NCBI RefSeq assembly: GCF_900458435.1 | Contig: NZ_UHCT01000001.1 | Location: 1,612,001 to 1,676,000, forward strand | DNA from: Staphylococcus carnosus | GTDB taxonomy: Bacteria > Bacillota > Bacilli > Staphylococcales > Staphylococcaceae | Length of the DNA: 64,000 bases | Direction: 5' to 3' | Part shown: positions 8,384-16,454 of the stretch, in pieces | Layout: each line of letters begins with the position of its first letter | How positions within the stretch are numbered: the first letter of the stretch is position 1 | The notes under the pieces: generated by a model | The model's input: only the letters and a program-made list of their open reading frames with translations | What the model was told of the DNA's origin: nothing | Databases searched by the model: none | Translations under genes and position numbers: made by a program

Positions 8384-9365
8384 TTAATTTGCATCATATA
8401 GATGACAAGCAACTTTATGCTCTGCATCAATTTGTTTCAAAGATATATCTCCTGTTTTGCAGATATCCATTACAGAAGGACATCTATTTGCAAACCTGCA
8501 TCCTTGTTTCGGCATATTAACTAATGAAGGTACACTTCCTTCAATTACTTCTAATTTTTCAGTCCTTTCATCCAATTTAGGAATCGACCTAATCAAAGCT
8601 TGAGTGTAAGGATGTTTTGGAAATTGGAAAATTTCATTTGTTAAACCTGTTTCAATAATATTTCCAGCGTACATAACTGCAACTCTGTCACAAAGTTCAG
8701 ATATTACAGCTAAATCATGTGAAATGAATATGATAGACATATCATTTTCTTTTCTTATTTTCTTTAAAAGTTCTAAAATTTGAGCTTGAACGGTTACGTC
8801 TAGTGCAGTGGTAGGCTCATCAGCAATCAGCAAATCTGGCTGGCACGATATCGCTAAAGCTATCATTACTCTTTGACGCATACCTCCAGATAACTGATGG
8901 GGATAGTTATCTATTACTTCTGCAGCTCTAGGAATTCCAACTTGATTAAGTAGCTCAATCGCCCTTTCTCTTGCATCTTTTTTACTTAGTTTTAGATGTA
9001 AAATTATTTTTTCAATAAGTTGGTTTCCTATTGTAAAAACAGGGTTTAAAGCAGTCATAGGTTCTTGAAAAATCATTGAAAGTTCTTTACCACGCATTTT
9101 GTTATATTCACTTTCTTTAATATTATCTATACGCTTTCCTTTAAAACTGATTTCCCCTTGGTCAATTCGTGCTATTTTTTCAGGTAATAATTGCATTACA
9201 GATAAACTTAAAACTGATTTCCCAGATCCAGATTCTCCTACAATTCCGAGAATTTCTCCTTTTTTTACTGATAGATTAATATTATTTACTGTAGAAAACC
9301 AATCTTTTTTTTATGTAGAAGCTGGTTCTTAATTGTGTTATTTCTAATATATTCTCTGATGTCAA
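8384..9365 (-). pseudogene. oppD: Peptide ABC transporter ATPase OppD, frameshifted in a run of eight A
   Basis: The downstream frame (from an internal ATG at 9196) gives 270 residues with Q-loop MIFQEPMTALNP, signature LSGGMRQRVMIALA, Walker B LLIADEPTTALDV and the Cys-rich Opp tail, but lacks Walker A. That motif (GESGSGKS) is encoded in the same frame just upstream, at about 9208-9231. Upstream again, a TTG start at 9365, with GGAGTG about 8 bases before it, opens LTSENILEITQLRTSFYIKK in another frame, and the two join only if one A is removed from the A8 run at 9305-9312 (minus strand). With seven A the protein would be about 326 residues, the normal OppD length. As written, translation stops after about 27 residues. 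Either a true null, a slippage-rescued gene, or a homopolymer sequencing error. Confidence 0.88.
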
Positions 9366-9390
9366 TTTAAACACTCCTCTTTTGCTTAGA

Positions 9391-9418
9391 AAAAGCCTCG
9401 AAATCTATCGAGGCTTTT
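9391..9418 (-). terminator. Attenuator-like hairpin between oppA and oppD
   Basis: AAAAGCCTCGA (9391-9401) pairs perfectly with TCGAGGCTTTT (9408-9418), 6-base loop; on the minus strand it is followed by TTTTTCT. Hairpins of this kind after the binding-protein gene commonly let the lipoprotein be made in excess over the membrane and ATPase subunits. Confidence 0.85.
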
Positions 9419-9430
9419 ACAAGCAAAACT

Positions 9431-11155
9431 TTATTTTTCTACAGTCCATTCATTTGCAGGGTTAGAACCTTTGAAAGAAACTTCAAAGTTTTTAACTTTA
9501 TTGCTTACTAAAGTAATATCTTCTAGCTCAACAAGTGGAATAACAGGTACTTCTTCATTCCATATTTTTTGTCATTTTAAGTAGATATCTTTACGTTTTT
9601 CTTTACTATTTCCAACTACATCATAGTCTGTTGCTTCAGCTAATAATTTATCTGATTCAGGATTGTTGTATCTTGATTCATTCCATAGAGCATTTGATTT
9701 ATACAAGCCTGATGGATCTGGATCGGCACCTTGTGACCAAGTTCTGAAATAAACTTCCATGCTCTTATCAGCATTTTCTAAATCTGAACCAAATTTACCA
9801 AACTCAACCATGCTAACTTTTGTTTTTAAACCTACTTTTTCCCAATAACCTTTTAATGCAGCAGTTCTTGGTTCGAATGTTGGGTTTGTACCAGCATAGT
9901 GTTTCAAATTAATTTCAAACTTTTTACCTTTAGGATCTTCTCTGAAGCCGTCTCCATCTTTATCTTTATATCCTGCTTCATCTAACAATTGTTTTGCTTT
10001 TTTAACATTATATTTGTAATCAGTTAAACCTTTATTACCTTGAGAAACCCAATGGTTTGTTGGGATTAACGAGTTAGTAGGTTTACCATAACCTTGTAAG
10101 AAAGCTTTAATCCATTCGTCTTTATTAATTGCGTAGTCCATTGCTTTTCTTAATTTAACATCTTGGTATTTCGGACGTGGTTCTCCAACCTTCATTGCTT
10201 TTTTATCATAACCGTTTAACACGAAACCAACGATCATATATGAAGTTGATGGCGAAGTTAAAATTTTAACATTATCTGTTTTAGACTCTTTAATTTGTTT
10301 AGCCATTGGTGCTGTACCTTCACTAACCATATCGATGTCACCGTTTTGAAGTGCTTTTACAATAGCATTTTGGTCAACAACTTTATAGTTGATTTTGTCT
10401 AACTTAGGTTCGCCTTTCCAATAATCTTTATATTTTTCAAATTGTACAGATTCACCGTCTACGATTTTCTTAACTTTGAATGGTCCGTACCCAATTGGAT
10501 GTTTACGCACAGCATCTGATTTAGCCATATCTTTAACAGGGATATCTTTGAATATCTTTTCGTTTAATAAATCCCCGCTATAAATTCTCAATAAATTGTT
10601 AACTTTCTTTTCTTTAAATGTAACTTCTACATTATAATCATCAATTTTTTTGATACCAGAAATTGTTTCTGCTTTACCTTCATGTTTTTCTTTTGCCCCT
10701 TCAATAGCTTCTACAGTATCATAACGTGGTCCATCATATTCAGGGTTTGCTAAAGTTTCTAAAGTAAAAATCCAGTCATTAACTGTAAGTGGGTCGCCGT
10801 TTTGCCACTTAACACCCTTTTTCAAAGTGAACTTATACTTTTTAGCAGGTTCAACTTCTTTCCATGAAACTAAATTAGGCTTCATTTGTAAGTGATCATC
10901 CATTTTAAATAGCCCATCACTGAACAAACCAATTACACCAGCATCAGTTGAAGATGCTGCAAATATTCCTGAGAAGTTTCCTTCTGGTGGTGCACCGGAA
11001 CCGATTTTTAAAGTTCCGCCTTTCGCATTACTTTTCCCAGTACTTCCTGATTCTCCATTTGCATTATCAGAATCAGATTTTTTACTGCCACAAGCTGATA
11101 AAACTAATAGCAAAGACAACAATACAATTGCTAATTTAAACCATCTTCTCTTCAT
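9431..11155 (-). pseudogene. oppA: Peptide-binding lipoprotein OppA with an in-frame TGA near the 3' end
   Basis: Substrate-binding lipoprotein of the peptide importer. The N-terminus has a lipoprotein signal (KRRW, hydrophobic stretch, lipobox L-S-A-C with Cys at about residue 22), then a Ser/Gly/Asn-rich linker and the SBP family 5 fold (KYKFTLKKGVKWQNGDPLT; RKAMDYAINKDEW). The frame reads 527 residues to DIYLK, then TGA at 9572-9574, and continues in the same frame QKIWNEEVPVIPLVELEDIT to a TAA at 9431-9433. Homologues have Trp at this spot (K-W-Q), so this looks like a TGG to TGA change removing the last 46 residues. Ribosome site AAAGGAGGA 6 bases before ATG; a very good promoter lies upstream. 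The truncated protein may still fold poorly or not at all. Confidence 0.88.
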
Positions 11156-11197
11156 ATAATTCCTCCTTTAATCTACATTGCGAAATTCTATAATCGA

Positions 11198-11227
11198 ATT
11201 ATATTAATTGTCTGACTATTGTGTCAA
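11198..11227 (-). promoter_or_regulatory. Strong sigma-A promoter of the opp operon
   Basis: On the minus strand: TTGACA (11222-11227), an 18-base spacer, then a consensus TATAAT (11198-11203), about 43 bases before the oppA start. Both hexamers are perfect, so the damaged operon is still equipped for strong transcription. Confidence 0.85.
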
Positions 11228-11274
11228 CTTTACATTCTATTTTTATCAACCTATTTAATTACACTTTTGCAAAT

Positions 11275-11319
11275 AAAAAAAGACTCAAGTATTCATCATG
11301 TAAAAAGTGAATACTTGAG
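11275..11319 (-). terminator. Terminator after the DUF77 gene
   Basis: Arms CTCAAGTATTCA (11284-11295) and TGAATACTTGAG (11308-11319) are perfect complements (12 bp). On the minus strand the stem is followed by TCTTTTTTT. It separates the DUF77 gene from the opp promoter. Confidence 0.9.
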
Positions 11320-11345
11320 CCTCAAGCAATAAATATATATGCCTT

Positions 11346-11636
11346 TTAATCGTATTTTATTGTTAATTCTTCCATGGTAATACCTGTAGGTACATAATAA
11401 AATCTAACTTGACTAATAACTCCTGGTACTTCCAACTCAACCATTCTATCATTAATGCTTTGAATTAAAATTAAACACTCGCTCATTGTGCCTTGAACGG
11501 TTGTTTCTAAAGGAGCTACTCGAAAATCTAATCCAGATTGCTCAATAATTGCTATCGCTTCATCTACGTATGGAATAACATCTTCGCCGTTTGGTGTTTG
11601 AGGTAAAACTTGGATACTCATCAACGTATCTTGCAT
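11346..11636 (-). CDS. MTH1187/YqgV family (DUF77) thiamine-binding protein
   Basis: A 96-residue ferredoxin-like alpha/beta protein of the DUF77 family. Family members form tetramers, and some bind thiamine in crystal structures; no enzyme activity is established. Recognisable segments are SIQVLPQTP near the N-terminus, VDEAIAIIEQSGLDFRVAPLETTVQG in the middle and the paired strands after it. Ribosome site AGAGGA about 9 bases before ATG. It follows the antitoxin-toxin-like gene by 81 bases in the same direction and has its own terminator. A thiamine-type ECF component (thiW) lies 8 kb away; a functional link is only a guess. Confidence 0.82.
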   Translation of the reverse strand: MQDTLMSIQVLPQTPNGEDVIPYVDEAIAIIEQSGLDFRVAPLETTVQGTMSECLILIQSINDRMVELEVPGVISQVRFYYVPTGITMEELTIKYD

Positions 11637-11717
11637 ATCAAAATTCCTCTTTTCATCAGTAGTTACTTTAAATGTATCAAATTTTAAATGAAGTGTGTAT
11701 TTGTATTACATAAATAT

Positions 11718-12239
11718 TTATATTGTATGGTAATAGCAACTCACTATAATAAGACGGTTTTCAACAACTTTAAAAACAAGACGATGTATGTCGTCTATTG
11801 CTATCGATTTAAATCCTCCGCACTTCACTCTTTTAACCATTAATGGAACAGGCTTATTATCTTCATCAAAAGGAATATTTCCTTTAATTTGTTGAACTCT
11901 TTTATTAAACTTTTCAACTAGTTCTTTATTGCGACTTTTGAAATGTGTGTGATCTTGATTTGCAGATTCTGTGAAATCTATTAACATACTCTCATCCACA
12001 AGCACTTTTACTAAACCCCCATTTACATAATCACGTATACATCTTGCTAAATGTTCACGATTAGCAGCAGTTTTAAGTAAATATTTTCTTTCTTCTAGTC
12101 CTTCTTTATCTATATCATTATCATCACTTTGATTATTTAAATAATCGGGATATTTTCCTAAACAATTCGTGAATATGTTGTCTAATAATCTTTGCTGCTT
12201 AGCACTCTCTTCATCATTTCTATTAATCTCTTGTGTCAT
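11718..12239 (-). CDS. Probable YefM-like antitoxin fused in frame to a YoeB-like RNase toxin
   Basis: One 173-residue ORF. Residues 85-173 resemble a full-length YoeB toxin: MLIDFTESANQDHTHFKSRN at the start, KELVEKFNKRVQQIKGNIPF, then IHRLVF and SCYYHT at the end. Against E. coli YoeB (recalled sequence), Arg65 matches R153 and His83 matches H171, but catalytic Glu46 is V131, Arg59 is A147 and Tyr84 is T172, and three residues are inserted near 134-140. Residues 48-68 resemble the toxin-binding helix of YefM: L48 E49 E50, Y53 L54 L55, A59 N60, L64, I68 match E. coli YefM in spacing. Residues 1-45 do not clearly match the YefM DNA-binding part. The join at residues 83-85 falls where antitoxin would end and toxin begin. 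Ribosome site AGAGGTGG precedes ATG. Toxin activity is doubtful. Confidence 0.7.
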   Translation of the reverse strand: MTQEINRNDEESAKQQRLLDNIFTNCLGKYPDYLNNQSDDNDIDKEGLEERKYLLKTAANREHLARCIRDYVNGGLVKVLVDESMLIDFTESANQDHTHFKSRNKELVEKFNKRVQQIKGNIPFDEDNKPVPLMVKRVKCGGFKSIAIDDIHRLVFKVVENRLIIVSCYYHTI

Positions 12240-12370
12240 TTATCCACCTCTTTAATATGACATATTTCACAATACCCAATTAAAGTGGTTTACCAAACGT
12301 TTAATCGAATAATTAACTTGAATTATATAAAATAATATTATATTTATGTATGAAAACTACATTTCAAAAA

Positions 12371-12429
12371 GAAAAAGCTTTCATTAAGCCTTTATAGGTT
12401 TATACCCTATTAACAACATAATGAAAGCT
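12371..12429 (-). terminator. Terminator of korAB
   Basis: AGCTTTCATTA (12376-12386) pairs with TAATGAAAGCT (12419-12429) around a 32-base loop; on the minus strand the stem runs into TTTTTC. It lies just downstream of the korB stop. Confidence 0.8.
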
Positions 12430-12439
12430 ATTATATTTA

Positions 12440-13306
12440 TTAAATAAATTGTTTTGTTAAGTCTTCAAATTGTTCTTTATCAATTTTGATATCTTGTTTT
12501 GCTAAAGGTTCACCGTTCATTTGTTCAATTTGAGATTCATATGACGGTGTTTCTTTATCTTGATAAACGATACCAGTTAGTAGTGATTCATGATCAATCA
12601 CTGTTTGAATTGCTTTGTTTTTGTCAGCAGTATCATAATCTTCAATATCATCAATAGATACCAAATGTTCTTTAAACCAATCATAAGTATTTACTTTATT
12701 GTAAGTTACACATGGAGAAAAGACATTTACAAATGAGAAACCATCATGATTGATAGCTTCTTCAATAAGTTTAGTTAGTCCTTTGATATCACTTGAGAAA
12801 CCTTGTCCTACAAAGGTTGCACCAGAAGATAATGCAAGTTCTAAAGGTGCTACATTTTGCTCAATGTTACCTTTTGGAGTTGTTTTCGTCACAAACCCTG
12901 GTGCAGAAGATGGTGATGTTTGTCCTTTAGTCAAACCATATATTTGGTTATCCATAACAATGTAAGTGATGTTCATGTTTCTGCGTAAAGCATGAATAGT
13001 ATGACCCATACCAATTGCATAGCCATCTCCATCACCGCCTGAACAAATAACAGTTAAATCTTTATTCGCCATTTTCACACCTTGTGCAATTGGCAATGCA
13101 CGACCATGAATAGCGTGCATACCATATGAATTTACATAGCCTGATAAACGTCCTGAACAACCAATACCAGTGATTAATGCTACTTCTTCAGGTTCTAATC
13201 CGACATTCGCCGCAGCTTTTTGTATTGCAGCTTGAACTGAGAAGTCACCACAACCTGGACACCAGTTTGGTTTAACGTTATTTCTAAAATCTTTAAATGT
13301 TGCCAC
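12440..13306 (-). CDS. korB: 2-oxoacid:ferredoxin oxidoreductase beta subunit
   Basis: Thiamine-diphosphate-binding subunit that decarboxylates a 2-oxoacid (most likely 2-oxoglutarate) and passes electrons to ferredoxin. The start is taken as GTG at 13306, where GGAGTGGG sits 5 bases upstream, giving 288 residues beginning VATFKDFRNNVKPNWCPGCG; a longer frame from 13336 has no good ribosome site. The ThDP motif is GDGDGYAIGMGH through DNQIYGLTKGQ (GDG..N), with CPGCG and CSGRL cysteines for a 4Fe-4S cluster. Overlaps the korA stop by 14 bases, so the two are coupled. Ends at a clear terminator. Substrate is inferred from family. Confidence 0.94.
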   Translation of the reverse strand: MATFKDFRNNVKPNWCPGCGDFSVQAAIQKAAANVGLEPEEVALITGIGCSGRLSGYVNSYGMHAIHGRALPIAQGVKMANKDLTVICSGGDGDGYAIGMGHTIHALRRNMNITYIVMDNQIYGLTKGQTSPSSAPGFVTKTTPKGNIEQNVAPLELALSSGATFVGQGFSSDIKGLTKLIEEAINHDGFSFVNVFSPCVTYNKVNTYDWFKEHLVSIDDIEDYDTADKNKAIQTVIDHESLLTGIVYQDKETPSYESQIEQMNGEPLAKQDIKIDKEQFEDLTKQFI

Positions 13307-15068
13307 TTGTACCCACTCCTTCAGTCTCTTTGGCAATCTCTAATCCTTTATCTTCAATTTCATGCGGTAAAAATGGTGTACCGTCATATTTTGTTTGTTT
13401 AATCAATTTACCGTGAACATTAACATTCATTTTTAATATATTCGCTAATTGACCTTGATAGTTGTGTTCAACTACTACTACTTTTTTCGCTTTGTCTACT
13501 GCTTCTTGCACTATTTCTGCTGGGAATGGATGTAATTGTCTGATTTGTAAATGATTTACTTTGACACCTTGGTTTTCAAGACGTGCTTTTCCTTCTTGGA
13601 TAGCACCTTTAGTTGAAATAAATCCAATATATAAGATGTCCGCTTCATCATACGGTTGATCATCAATAACAGGTTCACTAATTAATAAGTTTTCTGTTTT
13701 ACGCATACGTTTATCCATTTGTTCTTGACGGTTTTGTGCAGATTCACTTGGTTTACCTTCTTGGCTGTGTTCTACACCTGTGACGTGGTGAATACCGCCT
13801 TTTACACCTGGAATAGGTCTTGGAGATACACCGTTAGCAGTAAGTGCGTAACGTTTGAAGTAAGATTTATCATCTTCTTCTCTTTCAATATCTCCTTGTA
13901 AAAGCTCACCGCGTTTGATTTCAATACGGTCGTAATCTAACTGCTCAACTGTTTGTTTACCTAATGCTAATTGCAAGTCACTTAAAATAATAACAGGACA
14001 TTGATATTCTTCAGCTAAATTGAATGCTTCAACTGTTAAATAGAAAGAATCTTCTGCATCAGTTGGCGCAATAACAATTTTCGGAATATCACCATGTGTA
14101 CCGTATATCATTTGCATTAAATCTGATTGTTCTTCTTTAGTAGGCAATCCTGTAGAAGGGCCTCCGCGTTGTGTATTGATAATAACAAGCGGAGTTTCTG
14201 TCATACCAGATAGACCGATTGATTCCATCATCAATGATAAACCAGGACCTGCAGAAGCTGTAAATGCACGTACACCTGCATAATTTGCACCAATTGCCAT
14301 TGTAGCAGCTGCAATTTCATCTTCAGTTTGAATAACAGTTCCGCCGACTTTCGGCAGATTATCAATCATATACTCCATAATTTCTGATGCTGGTGTAATT
14401 GGATAAGCAGCCATAAATTTACAACCTGCAGAAATCGCACCTAAACCTACTGCATCATTACCAATCATATAAAGATGCGGTTCAGAATCACTTGGTTCTA
14501 AGTGATAATCGCCTTCTAATTCTGGCATTTGTTCTTTCATTGCATCATAGCCTTGGTGTAAAGCTTGAATATTGCTTTCTACAATTTTTTCACCTTTTTT
14601 ACCAAAAGTATTTGCAATAAGTGCTTCAAATGATTGGATATCTAAATCCATAACGGCACAAGTCGCACCGATAGCTACCATATTTTTCATTAATTTATTT
14701 CCTAATTCTTTTGCAATATCAGTAAAAGGAAGAATAATAAGTTGTGCTTTGCAATCTTCAGGTTTAGAAGGTTTAGCTTTCGCATCAGCGATAATCACAC
14801 TGTCGTCACGCATCTCATGGTGATTTAACTCAATTGTTTCTTGGTCGAATGCAACGAGAATATCTAAATCATCACTAATAGCATGAACTGGCTTTGTTGA
14901 TACTCTAATTTTATTATTGGTATGACCGCCTTTAATTCGGCTTGAGAAATGTCTGTAACCGTATAGGTAGTACCCTTTACGGTTCATAGCTGTGGCAAAG
15001 ATTTCCCCTGTCGATTCGATTCCTTCACCTTGTTGACCGCCAACTTTCCATGATACTTGTGATTTCAT
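13293..15068 (-). CDS. korA: 2-oxoacid:ferredoxin oxidoreductase alpha (fused gamma-alpha) subunit
   Basis: 591-residue partner of KorB. The N-terminal 190 residues are the gamma-type domain (WKVGGQQGEGIESTGEIFA, then HFSSRIKGGHTNN); the central part is the pyrimidine-binding alpha domain (GNDAVGLGAISAGCKFMAAYPITPASEIME, then FTASAGPGLSLMMESIG and NTQRGGPSTGLPTKEEQSDL); and the C-terminal part is the transketolase-C-like domain. Gamma-alpha fusions are normal for this class. Ribosome site AGGAGG 8 bases before ATG. Forms a two-gene operon with korB, downstream of ymdB. CoA-dependent oxidative decarboxylation in the TCA cycle is the expected role. Confidence 0.95.
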   Translation of the reverse strand: MKSQVSWKVGGQQGEGIESTGEIFATAMNRKGYYLYGYRHFSSRIKGGHTNNKIRVSTKPVHAISDDLDILVAFDQETIELNHHEMRDDSVIIADAKAKPSKPEDCKAQLIILPFTDIAKELGNKLMKNMVAIGATCAVMDLDIQSFEALIANTFGKKGEKIVESNIQALHQGYDAMKEQMPELEGDYHLEPSDSEPHLYMIGNDAVGLGAISAGCKFMAAYPITPASEIMEYMIDNLPKVGGTVIQTEDEIAAATMAIGANYAGVRAFTASAGPGLSLMMESIGLSGMTETPLVIINTQRGGPSTGLPTKEEQSDLMQMIYGTHGDIPKIVIAPTDAEDSFYLTVEAFNLAEEYQCPVIILSDLQLALGKQTVEQLDYDRIEIKRGELLQGDIEREEDDKSYFKRYALTANGVSPRPIPGVKGGIHHVTGVEHSQEGKPSESAQNRQEQMDKRMRKTENLLISEPVIDDQPYDEADILYIGFISTKGAIQEGKARLENQGVKVNHLQIRQLHPFPAEIVQEAVDKAKKVVVVEHNYQGQLANILKMNVNVHGKLIKQTKYDGTPFLPHEIEDKGLEIAKETEGVGTSGNI

Positions 15069-16235: not shown

Positions 16236-16454
16236 ATGTCAATTAACATTGATCCCGAAAAGTTTGCAGAACTTGTACTTCAATCAAATCCTTCAAAAAG
16301 TGAGGACCCAGAAGACATCGCAAAAGACTCTTTAGAACTTTATATCAACGCTTATCGTTTAGCTGAGAGATATGCTAATTTATCATCAAATGCTTTCGAT
16401 ACTTGTGAAGTTTTAAAAGAAGTTAAAAACACTGATTTATTACTAAGCAAATAA
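16236..16454 (+). CDS. Small conserved-looking hypothetical protein
   Basis: A 72-residue acidic, helical protein, starting MSINIDPEKFAELVLQS, with EDPEDIAKDSLELYINAYRLAERYANL in the middle. I do not recognise a functional family; it resembles small cytosolic proteins annotated as hypothetical in other staphylococci. Support for being real: AGGAG about 12 bases before ATG, normal codon use, a strong terminator immediately after, and orientation opposite to its neighbours with a 260-base upstream gap for a promoter. No Cys pair (a single Cys), no signal peptide, no membrane segment. Confidence 0.72.
   Translation: MSINIDPEKFAELVLQSNPSKSEDPEDIAKDSLELYINAYRLAERYANLSSNAFDTCEVLKEVKNTDLLLSK

Follow-up and report, generated by a model that had tools for sequence, protein, structure and literature searches.

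Mono-gene fusions of the antitoxin YefM to the growth-arresting toxin YoeB are already known: Table 2 of a 2025 mBio paper (PMC11980606) counts five prokaryotic and two eukaryotic cases. Related arrangements occur in the Phd-RelE fusion of Ralstonia eutropha, whose activity is thought to be lost, with truncations blamed and a dead end considered (PMC4826407), and in EzeT, whose toxin domain is active once freed (PMC4826407, PMC4803016). Here we describe a yefM-yoeB fusion from Staphylococcus carnosus, encoded by a single open reading frame (ORF) of 173 amino acids within a stretch of 64,000 nucleotides (the window; contig NZ_UHCT01000001.1, positions 1,612,001 to 1,676,000). An earlier sequence-only reading of the window had placed this ORF at 11718..12239 without naming a strand and had proposed that it joins YefM to a YoeB with altered catalytic residues. 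The ORF is borne out and lies on the minus strand.

Like the fusions in PMC11980606, the staphylococcal gene is a single ORF with the YefM part N-terminal and the YoeB part C-terminal. However, the YefM DNA-binding topology is preserved in the example described in that paper, from Mycobacterium shinjukuense, whereas the staphylococcal arm looks degenerate; moreover, catalytic residues have been substituted throughout the staphylococcal fused family, and all eight genomes with the gene carry it at one chromosomal site. The name Staphylococcus does not occur in the main text of PMC11980606, the portion covered here, and overlap with its five prokaryotic cases is possible. The Ralstonia protein (PMC4826407) likewise couples a Phd-family antitoxin to a RelE toxin, but the staphylococcal fusion retains both parts over most of their length, carries substituted residues and is under purifying selection. 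In EzeT, too, a cis-acting antitoxin domain precedes the toxin in the chain, although that toxin belongs to the unrelated zeta family (PMC4826407, PMC4803016). Canonical yefM-yoeB pairs of the same bacterial family, including a copy elsewhere in the genome that contains the window (G000, 2.58 Mb; G000:C1:2302037), are homologous to both halves of the fused protein. These are two genes with the catalytic residues present, and the YefM of G000 is matched by Pfam. No publication on a staphylococcal fused YefM-YoeB was found by title or abstract start among the matches listed, with most subscription papers and supplements lying outside reach. Relative to the fusions reported in 2025, the staphylococcal gene is a variant that is catalytically rebuilt and vertically kept.

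The N-terminal half derives from YefM. A tblastn search of 108 genomes of the family with the fused protein returned 11 loci, nine in Staphylococcus and two in another genus, in which the match runs in one frame through the TAA stop of yefM into yoeB, beginning at residue 48, or at 43 in a single locus, and ending at residue 171. Four of these loci were viewed residue by residue, and the junctions in all 11. A profile built from residues 1-84 of the fused family aligns over its whole length with 22 YefM ORFs in hhalign, with a score of 30.1, a probability of 60.6% and, for a single-entry library, E 1.2e-5. The real match lies above all of 100 column-shuffled controls, for which the best score was 19.1 and the best probability 4.3%. 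The fused-family alignment comprises 12 rows, with P0001 and P0002 omitted on account of 99% identity to the window protein and full identity to the G073 protein. When fused and separate proteins are aligned with MAFFT, the YefM rows fall on the N-terminal half (among the rows listed, one in two). The profile comparison with YefM that had been suggested for residues 1-84 therefore succeeds with the family profile and fails with the public model: Pfam gives no Phd/YefM match up to E 10 for residues 1-84 alone, and in a six-frame PF02604 search of the eight genomes with the fusion the fused locus is not among the matches. A weak match of this segment to DUF4032 (E 0.06, below the family cut-off) was ignored. 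Residues 48-84 are, by these comparisons, homologous to the YefM toxin-binding tail, as the sequence-only reading had proposed for residues 48-68, and its fusion interpretation is supported by the frame-continuous homology together with the family profile match. The residues before the tail look like a degenerate DNA-binding arm, again in line with that reading.

The C-terminal half is a YoeB fold. Residues 89-171 match Pfam PF06769 (YoeB_toxin) with E 6.2e-12 and 45.8 bits, above the curated cut-off of 27, and Foldseek and VIA matches cover only approximately residues 83-173. The NCBIfam equivalog model TIGR02116 scores the fused protein at 40.9 bits, below its cut-off of 51.8. In YoeB, Glu46 serves as general base and His83 as general acid; there is also a requirement for Arg59, and the mRNA is contacted by Glu63, Arg65 and Tyr84 (PMC3814384). 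We compared the 12 fused rows with 16 canonical YoeB rows of the family, all of which carry Glu46, Arg58, Arg59, Arg65, His83 and Tyr84. In the fused rows, Glu46 is gone from all 12 and Arg59 from 10, whereas His83 is present throughout. All 12 have Ile, Leu or Met in place of Arg58 and Tyr in place of Arg/Lys81; 11 of them, G044 being the exception, keep the Arg65 equivalent. The window protein has V131 at Glu46, A147 at Arg59 and T172 at Tyr84 while keeping H171 and R153, which confirms the altered residues noted earlier. The fusion and its conservation are well established, as is the rebuilding of the active site at the sequence level, and the fused protein is likely to be RNase-dead.

Searches of 5.8 billion proteins with the single sequence (26 candidates) and with a profile (1714 candidates) yielded the same seven fused proteins. 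The named records among them come from Staphylococcus piscifermentans, S. simulans and Staphylococcus sp. EZ-P03, and all three are annotated as YoeB-family toxin or endoribonuclease, a label that hides the likely loss of activity. Eight of the 108 family genomes carry the fused gene (seven full-length, one interrupted), and split pairs also occur in the family. In all eight genomes the fused gene lies between an oxidoreductase gene and a thiamine-binding protein gene, the two neighbours being on separate contigs in G087. Of 84 genomes in the genus, 77 have the thiamine-binding protein gene. Among 22 corresponding loci fetched from fusion-free genomes, 13 have a poly-gamma-glutamate-hydrolase-like ORF between the two genes (one of these ORFs was confirmed as PF05908), three are empty (L085, L091 and L095; 83-96 nucleotides) and six have no oxidoreductase gene in reach. 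Plasmid records gave 72 matches, all below 60% identity; among the 40 listed, the annotated ones are YoeB toxins or YefM-YoeB pairs. A match to residues 82-116 in an Acidimicrobiaceae locus (L037) falls in an unrelated-looking ORF and was judged to be due to chance.

As an observation on the site itself, the stretch 11637-12439 between the two flanking genes carries variable cargo across the genus (compare L075-L096), and L076 and L082 carry two tandem hydrolase-like ORFs upstream of the thiamine-binding protein gene.

The fused gene is under purifying selection. For the whole gene, the ratio of nonsynonymous to synonymous substitution rates (dN/dS) is 0.04-0.09 in eight of ten genome pairs (0.055 for G000-G041, 0.09 for G073-G044 and 0.06 for G088-G089). 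The neighbouring oxidoreductase gene is under tighter constraint (0.015 for G000-G041). By counts of invariant alignment columns, constraint on the toxin-binding tail (19 of 37) is as tight as that on the toxin domain (38 of 89), and it is looser on the arm (6 of 47). In a tree, a single long branch, supported at 100/100, divides the 12 fused toxin halves from their 16 canonical counterparts; its length is 1.12 plus 1.25 across a midpoint root, with no outgroup. We read this pattern as one origin with fast early change and later constraint, although the tree alone is no proof. The fused junction is about four residues shorter than that of either split type, abutting or overlapping. Fusion through simple stop loss from the in-frame split type is possible, with either split type a candidate source given this shorter junction and the position of the fused rows outside both types in the tree.

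Structure prediction bears on whether the two halves interact. With YefM and YoeB rows included, AlphaFold2 returns a model with a mean predicted local distance difference test (pLDDT) score of 75, in which residues 48-84 form helices and a strand. Residues 1-47 form one helix and a linker, largely at low confidence and without the YefM strands; residues 1-75 contain no strands, and pLDDT falls below 50 in 1-6, 29-33 and 35-40. In this model the tail probably folds back onto the toxin domain of the same chain, as expected for the self-inhibited protein suggested by the sequence-only reading.

Judging from the expression signals, the gene probably has a SigB-type stress promoter of its own. The SigB consensus is GTTTAA-N14-GGGTAT in Bacillus subtilis and KTTTW-N12-17-GGGWAW in Bacillales (PMC9847131). 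The −35 element here, GTTTGG with a 15-nucleotide spacer, is two bases off the former and one off the latter. The pattern GTTT-N17-GGGWAW is present 32-34 nucleotides before the ATG in all seven genomes with a full-length gene; from the 82 matches on both strands of the window genome, about 0.003 are expected per 200 nucleotides of one strand. A block of about 65 nucleotides upstream of the gene is well conserved in the seven genomes, and sigB scores above its cut-off in all eight genomes with the fusion. A terminator-like hairpin, missed by a simple terminator scan, separates the fused gene from the upstream oxidoreductase gene. Elsewhere in G000:C1, near-identical pairs of promoter patterns recur at about 877-878, 976-977, 1106-1108, 2389-2396 and 2447-2448 kb; our guess is that these are ribosomal RNA operons.

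Our favoured explanation, which we hold to be fairly likely, is that the fusion has been disarmed and domesticated as an RNase-dead, self-complexed YoeB fold that acts by binding and is possibly stress-controlled. An ancestor of the S. simulans and S. carnosus groups would have carried a yefM-yoeB pair between the oxidoreductase and thiamine-binding protein genes, and loss of the stop between them would have produced one ORF. The general base and most residues that contact the mRNA would then have disappeared from the toxin domain, and the antitoxin would have shed its DNA-binding arm while keeping the toxin-binding tail, which probably packs on the toxin domain of the same chain. The product would be stable, would most likely act without cutting, by binding to RNA, the ribosome or another protein, and would probably be expressed from the SigB-type promoter. 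Of this account, the fusion origin, the residue losses, the conservation, the synteny and the purifying selection are demonstrated, and the single event, the loss of RNase activity, the packing in cis, the control by SigB and the role in binding are inferred. Most of the related genomes that carry the fused gene have preserved it intact, which suggests a new job. The window belongs to the group of S. carnosus, a food-grade species in which the gene would be safe to study. Conserved synteny, purifying selection and the family-wide catalytic replacements likewise support the earlier idea of a tamed toxin that has been kept. The case addresses an open question, the fate of chromosomal toxin-antitoxin genes once they are no longer selfish: one genus preserves both the earlier condition, with split, catalytic genes that sometimes abut in frame, and the later one, a fused, disarmed and conserved gene.

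Several observations weigh against this explanation. In G087, an S. simulans draft genome, the gene is in two pieces at contig ends and contains an in-frame TAA. dN/dS reaches 0.20 for G000-G086, a pair between subgroups, and saturation of dS prevents its calculation for G041-G088; among the other pairs, several dS values lie above 1 and are approximate. With three subgroups supplying the 12 rows, a change inherited once enters the counts many times. Weak RNase activity is possible, given the retention of His83 and of most Arg65 equivalents and the suggestion that ribosomal A1493 might partly stand in for Glu46 (PMC3814384). The cis packing draws on one AlphaFold2 model aided by YefM and YoeB rows, and prediction with fused members alone collapses to a mean pLDDT of 38 and an unreliable, unusable model; the proposed self-inhibition is a modelled feature, taken from the first run. 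Finally, the SigB pattern is not enriched genome-wide (82 matches versus 101 in a reversed control), and the SigB match thus leans on conservation and position. A general promoter scan found seven sites against 7.5 in shuffles, no excess, and a loose sigma-A-like reading overlaps the SigB match in five of seven genomes.

A smaller but tangible chance goes to conversion of the pair, through one fusion and a rebuilt active site, into a SigB-controlled general-stress protein, in which the non-cutting YoeB fold would dock on ribosomes or on YefM/YoeB proteins and modulate translation or toxin addiction without toxicity.

Slightly less probable is a modulator acting in trans, whose tail would neutralise an incoming or resident YoeB or whose dead toxin domain would sequester YefM. 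The constraint on the YefM tail agrees with this, as does the state of the canonical genes: among the eight genomes with the fusion, yoeB is intact in G000 only, is broken in G041 and G086, and has no match in the other five (G044, G073, G087, G088 and G089), with the antitoxin alone remaining in G073. However, one intact against two broken copies is too few for an effect, the fused gene is kept in the five genomes that lack a canonical yoeB match, and 57 of the 100 fusion-free genomes equally lack a PF06769 match at E 0.01. Since the fused gene persists with a broken yoeB, with no yoeB match or with yefM alone, it is independent of the canonical pair, and decay of that pair as a consequence of fusion was rejected because the counts are too small.

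In the fusion-free genomes, 35 strong canonical loci (above 70 bits) comprise 32 with an open frame, one of which (G105) matches positions 1-73 only, and three that are broken; there are also three short fragments, and 18 weaker PF06769 rows (25-39 bits), which probably represent a different family, were excluded. The sequence-only reading had described normal yefM-yoeB as two overlapping genes. This holds for only part of the family: across 23 canonical loci, 22 with an upstream antitoxin ORF, the genes overlap by 8 nucleotides in seven and by 1 nucleotide in three, whereas 11 abut in frame with a gap of 0 and one is unclear. The orphan yefM of G073 (L052 1501-1746) is altered at its C-terminus, is not followed by a yoeB and lies near a transporter ORF that we take to be TrkH-like.

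Less probable again, and in our estimate doubtful, is a still-active, auto-inhibited single-chain module of the EzeT kind, with the tail blocking the YoeB domain until a protease or other trigger releases it. The domain order is that of EzeT (PMC4826407), the tail is strongly conserved, and the general acid persists in every row and the Arg65 equivalent in all but one; nonetheless, Glu46, Glu63, Arg58 and Tyr84 are gone from all 12 rows and Arg59 from 10, and G044 lacks the Arg65 equivalent as well.

We regard a decaying relic that is readable by chance as very unlikely. The N-terminus is loose (dN/dS of about 0.45 for residues 1-46 in G086-G088, compared with 0.05 in G000-G041), seven loop residues are absent from P0003 and G087 has its nonsense codon. 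Against this, seven of eight genomes keep a full-length ORF despite far-diverged synonymous sites, whole-gene dN/dS is low in most pairs, and the upstream block and ribosome site are conserved, so that the relic option raised by the sequence-only reading is disfavoured. Its other suggestion, internal initiation at Met85 yielding an additional, free YoeB-like toxin, has just as little to recommend it, because codon 85, although ATG in four of seven genomes, is TTA, CTA or CAA in G086, G088 and G089, and the catalytic residues are lost.

Table 1. Positions of the fused gene, its parts and its surroundings in the window
Feature	Position	Strand	Remarks
Fused yefM-yoeB ORF, 173 amino acids	11718..12239	-	stop included
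Residues 1-47, apparently degenerate remnant of YefM DNA-binding arm	12099..12239	-	6/47 columns invariant, 12 members
Residues 48-84, YefM toxin-binding tail	11988..12098	-	19/37 columns invariant, 12 members
Residues 85-173, YoeB-fold domain	11721..11987	-	38/89 columns invariant, 12 members
Val131, replacing general base Glu46	11847..11849	-	fused V 10, I 1, L 1 of 12; canonical E 16/16
Ala147, replacing Arg59	11799..11801	-	fused A 5, K 5, R 2 of 12
Ile151, replacing Glu63	11787..11789	-	fused I 12/12; canonical E 15, D 1 of 16
His171-Thr172	11724..11729	-	general acid His83 kept 12/12; Tyr84 to Thr 12/12
SigB-like promoter match, GTTT-N17-GGGTAT	12272..12298	-	ends 32 nucleotides before start codon
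Shine-Dalgarno sequence, AGAGGTGG	12244..12251	-	read from sequence
Upstream neighbour, oxidoreductase gene	12440..13336	-	same neighbour in 8 fusion genomes
Downstream neighbour, thiamine-binding protein PF01910	11346..11636	-	same neighbour in 8 fusion genomes
Terminator-like hairpin and U-run, 3' of upstream oxidoreductase gene	12376..12429	-	folding z-score -4.95

The upstream neighbour is presumably the beta subunit of a 2-oxoacid ferredoxin oxidoreductase. Rfam gave no match at gathering scores over 11000-12600, and PADLOC anti-phage defence profiles matched the fused protein with no family up to E 1. Adjoining the fused gene, what we take to be an opp operon (8384-11155) is damaged in the window genome: oppA ends at 527 amino acids, with homology to a 571-amino-acid G073 protein carrying on in frame past the stop, and oppD homology shifts frame near residue 22. 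G041 and G044 lack the operon at this site, and in G089 it is broken. A 72-amino-acid ORF on the plus strand (16236-16454), with no Pfam match at E 0.001, is kept at the same place in seven of eight fetched regions, the remaining one (L065) ending short of that side.
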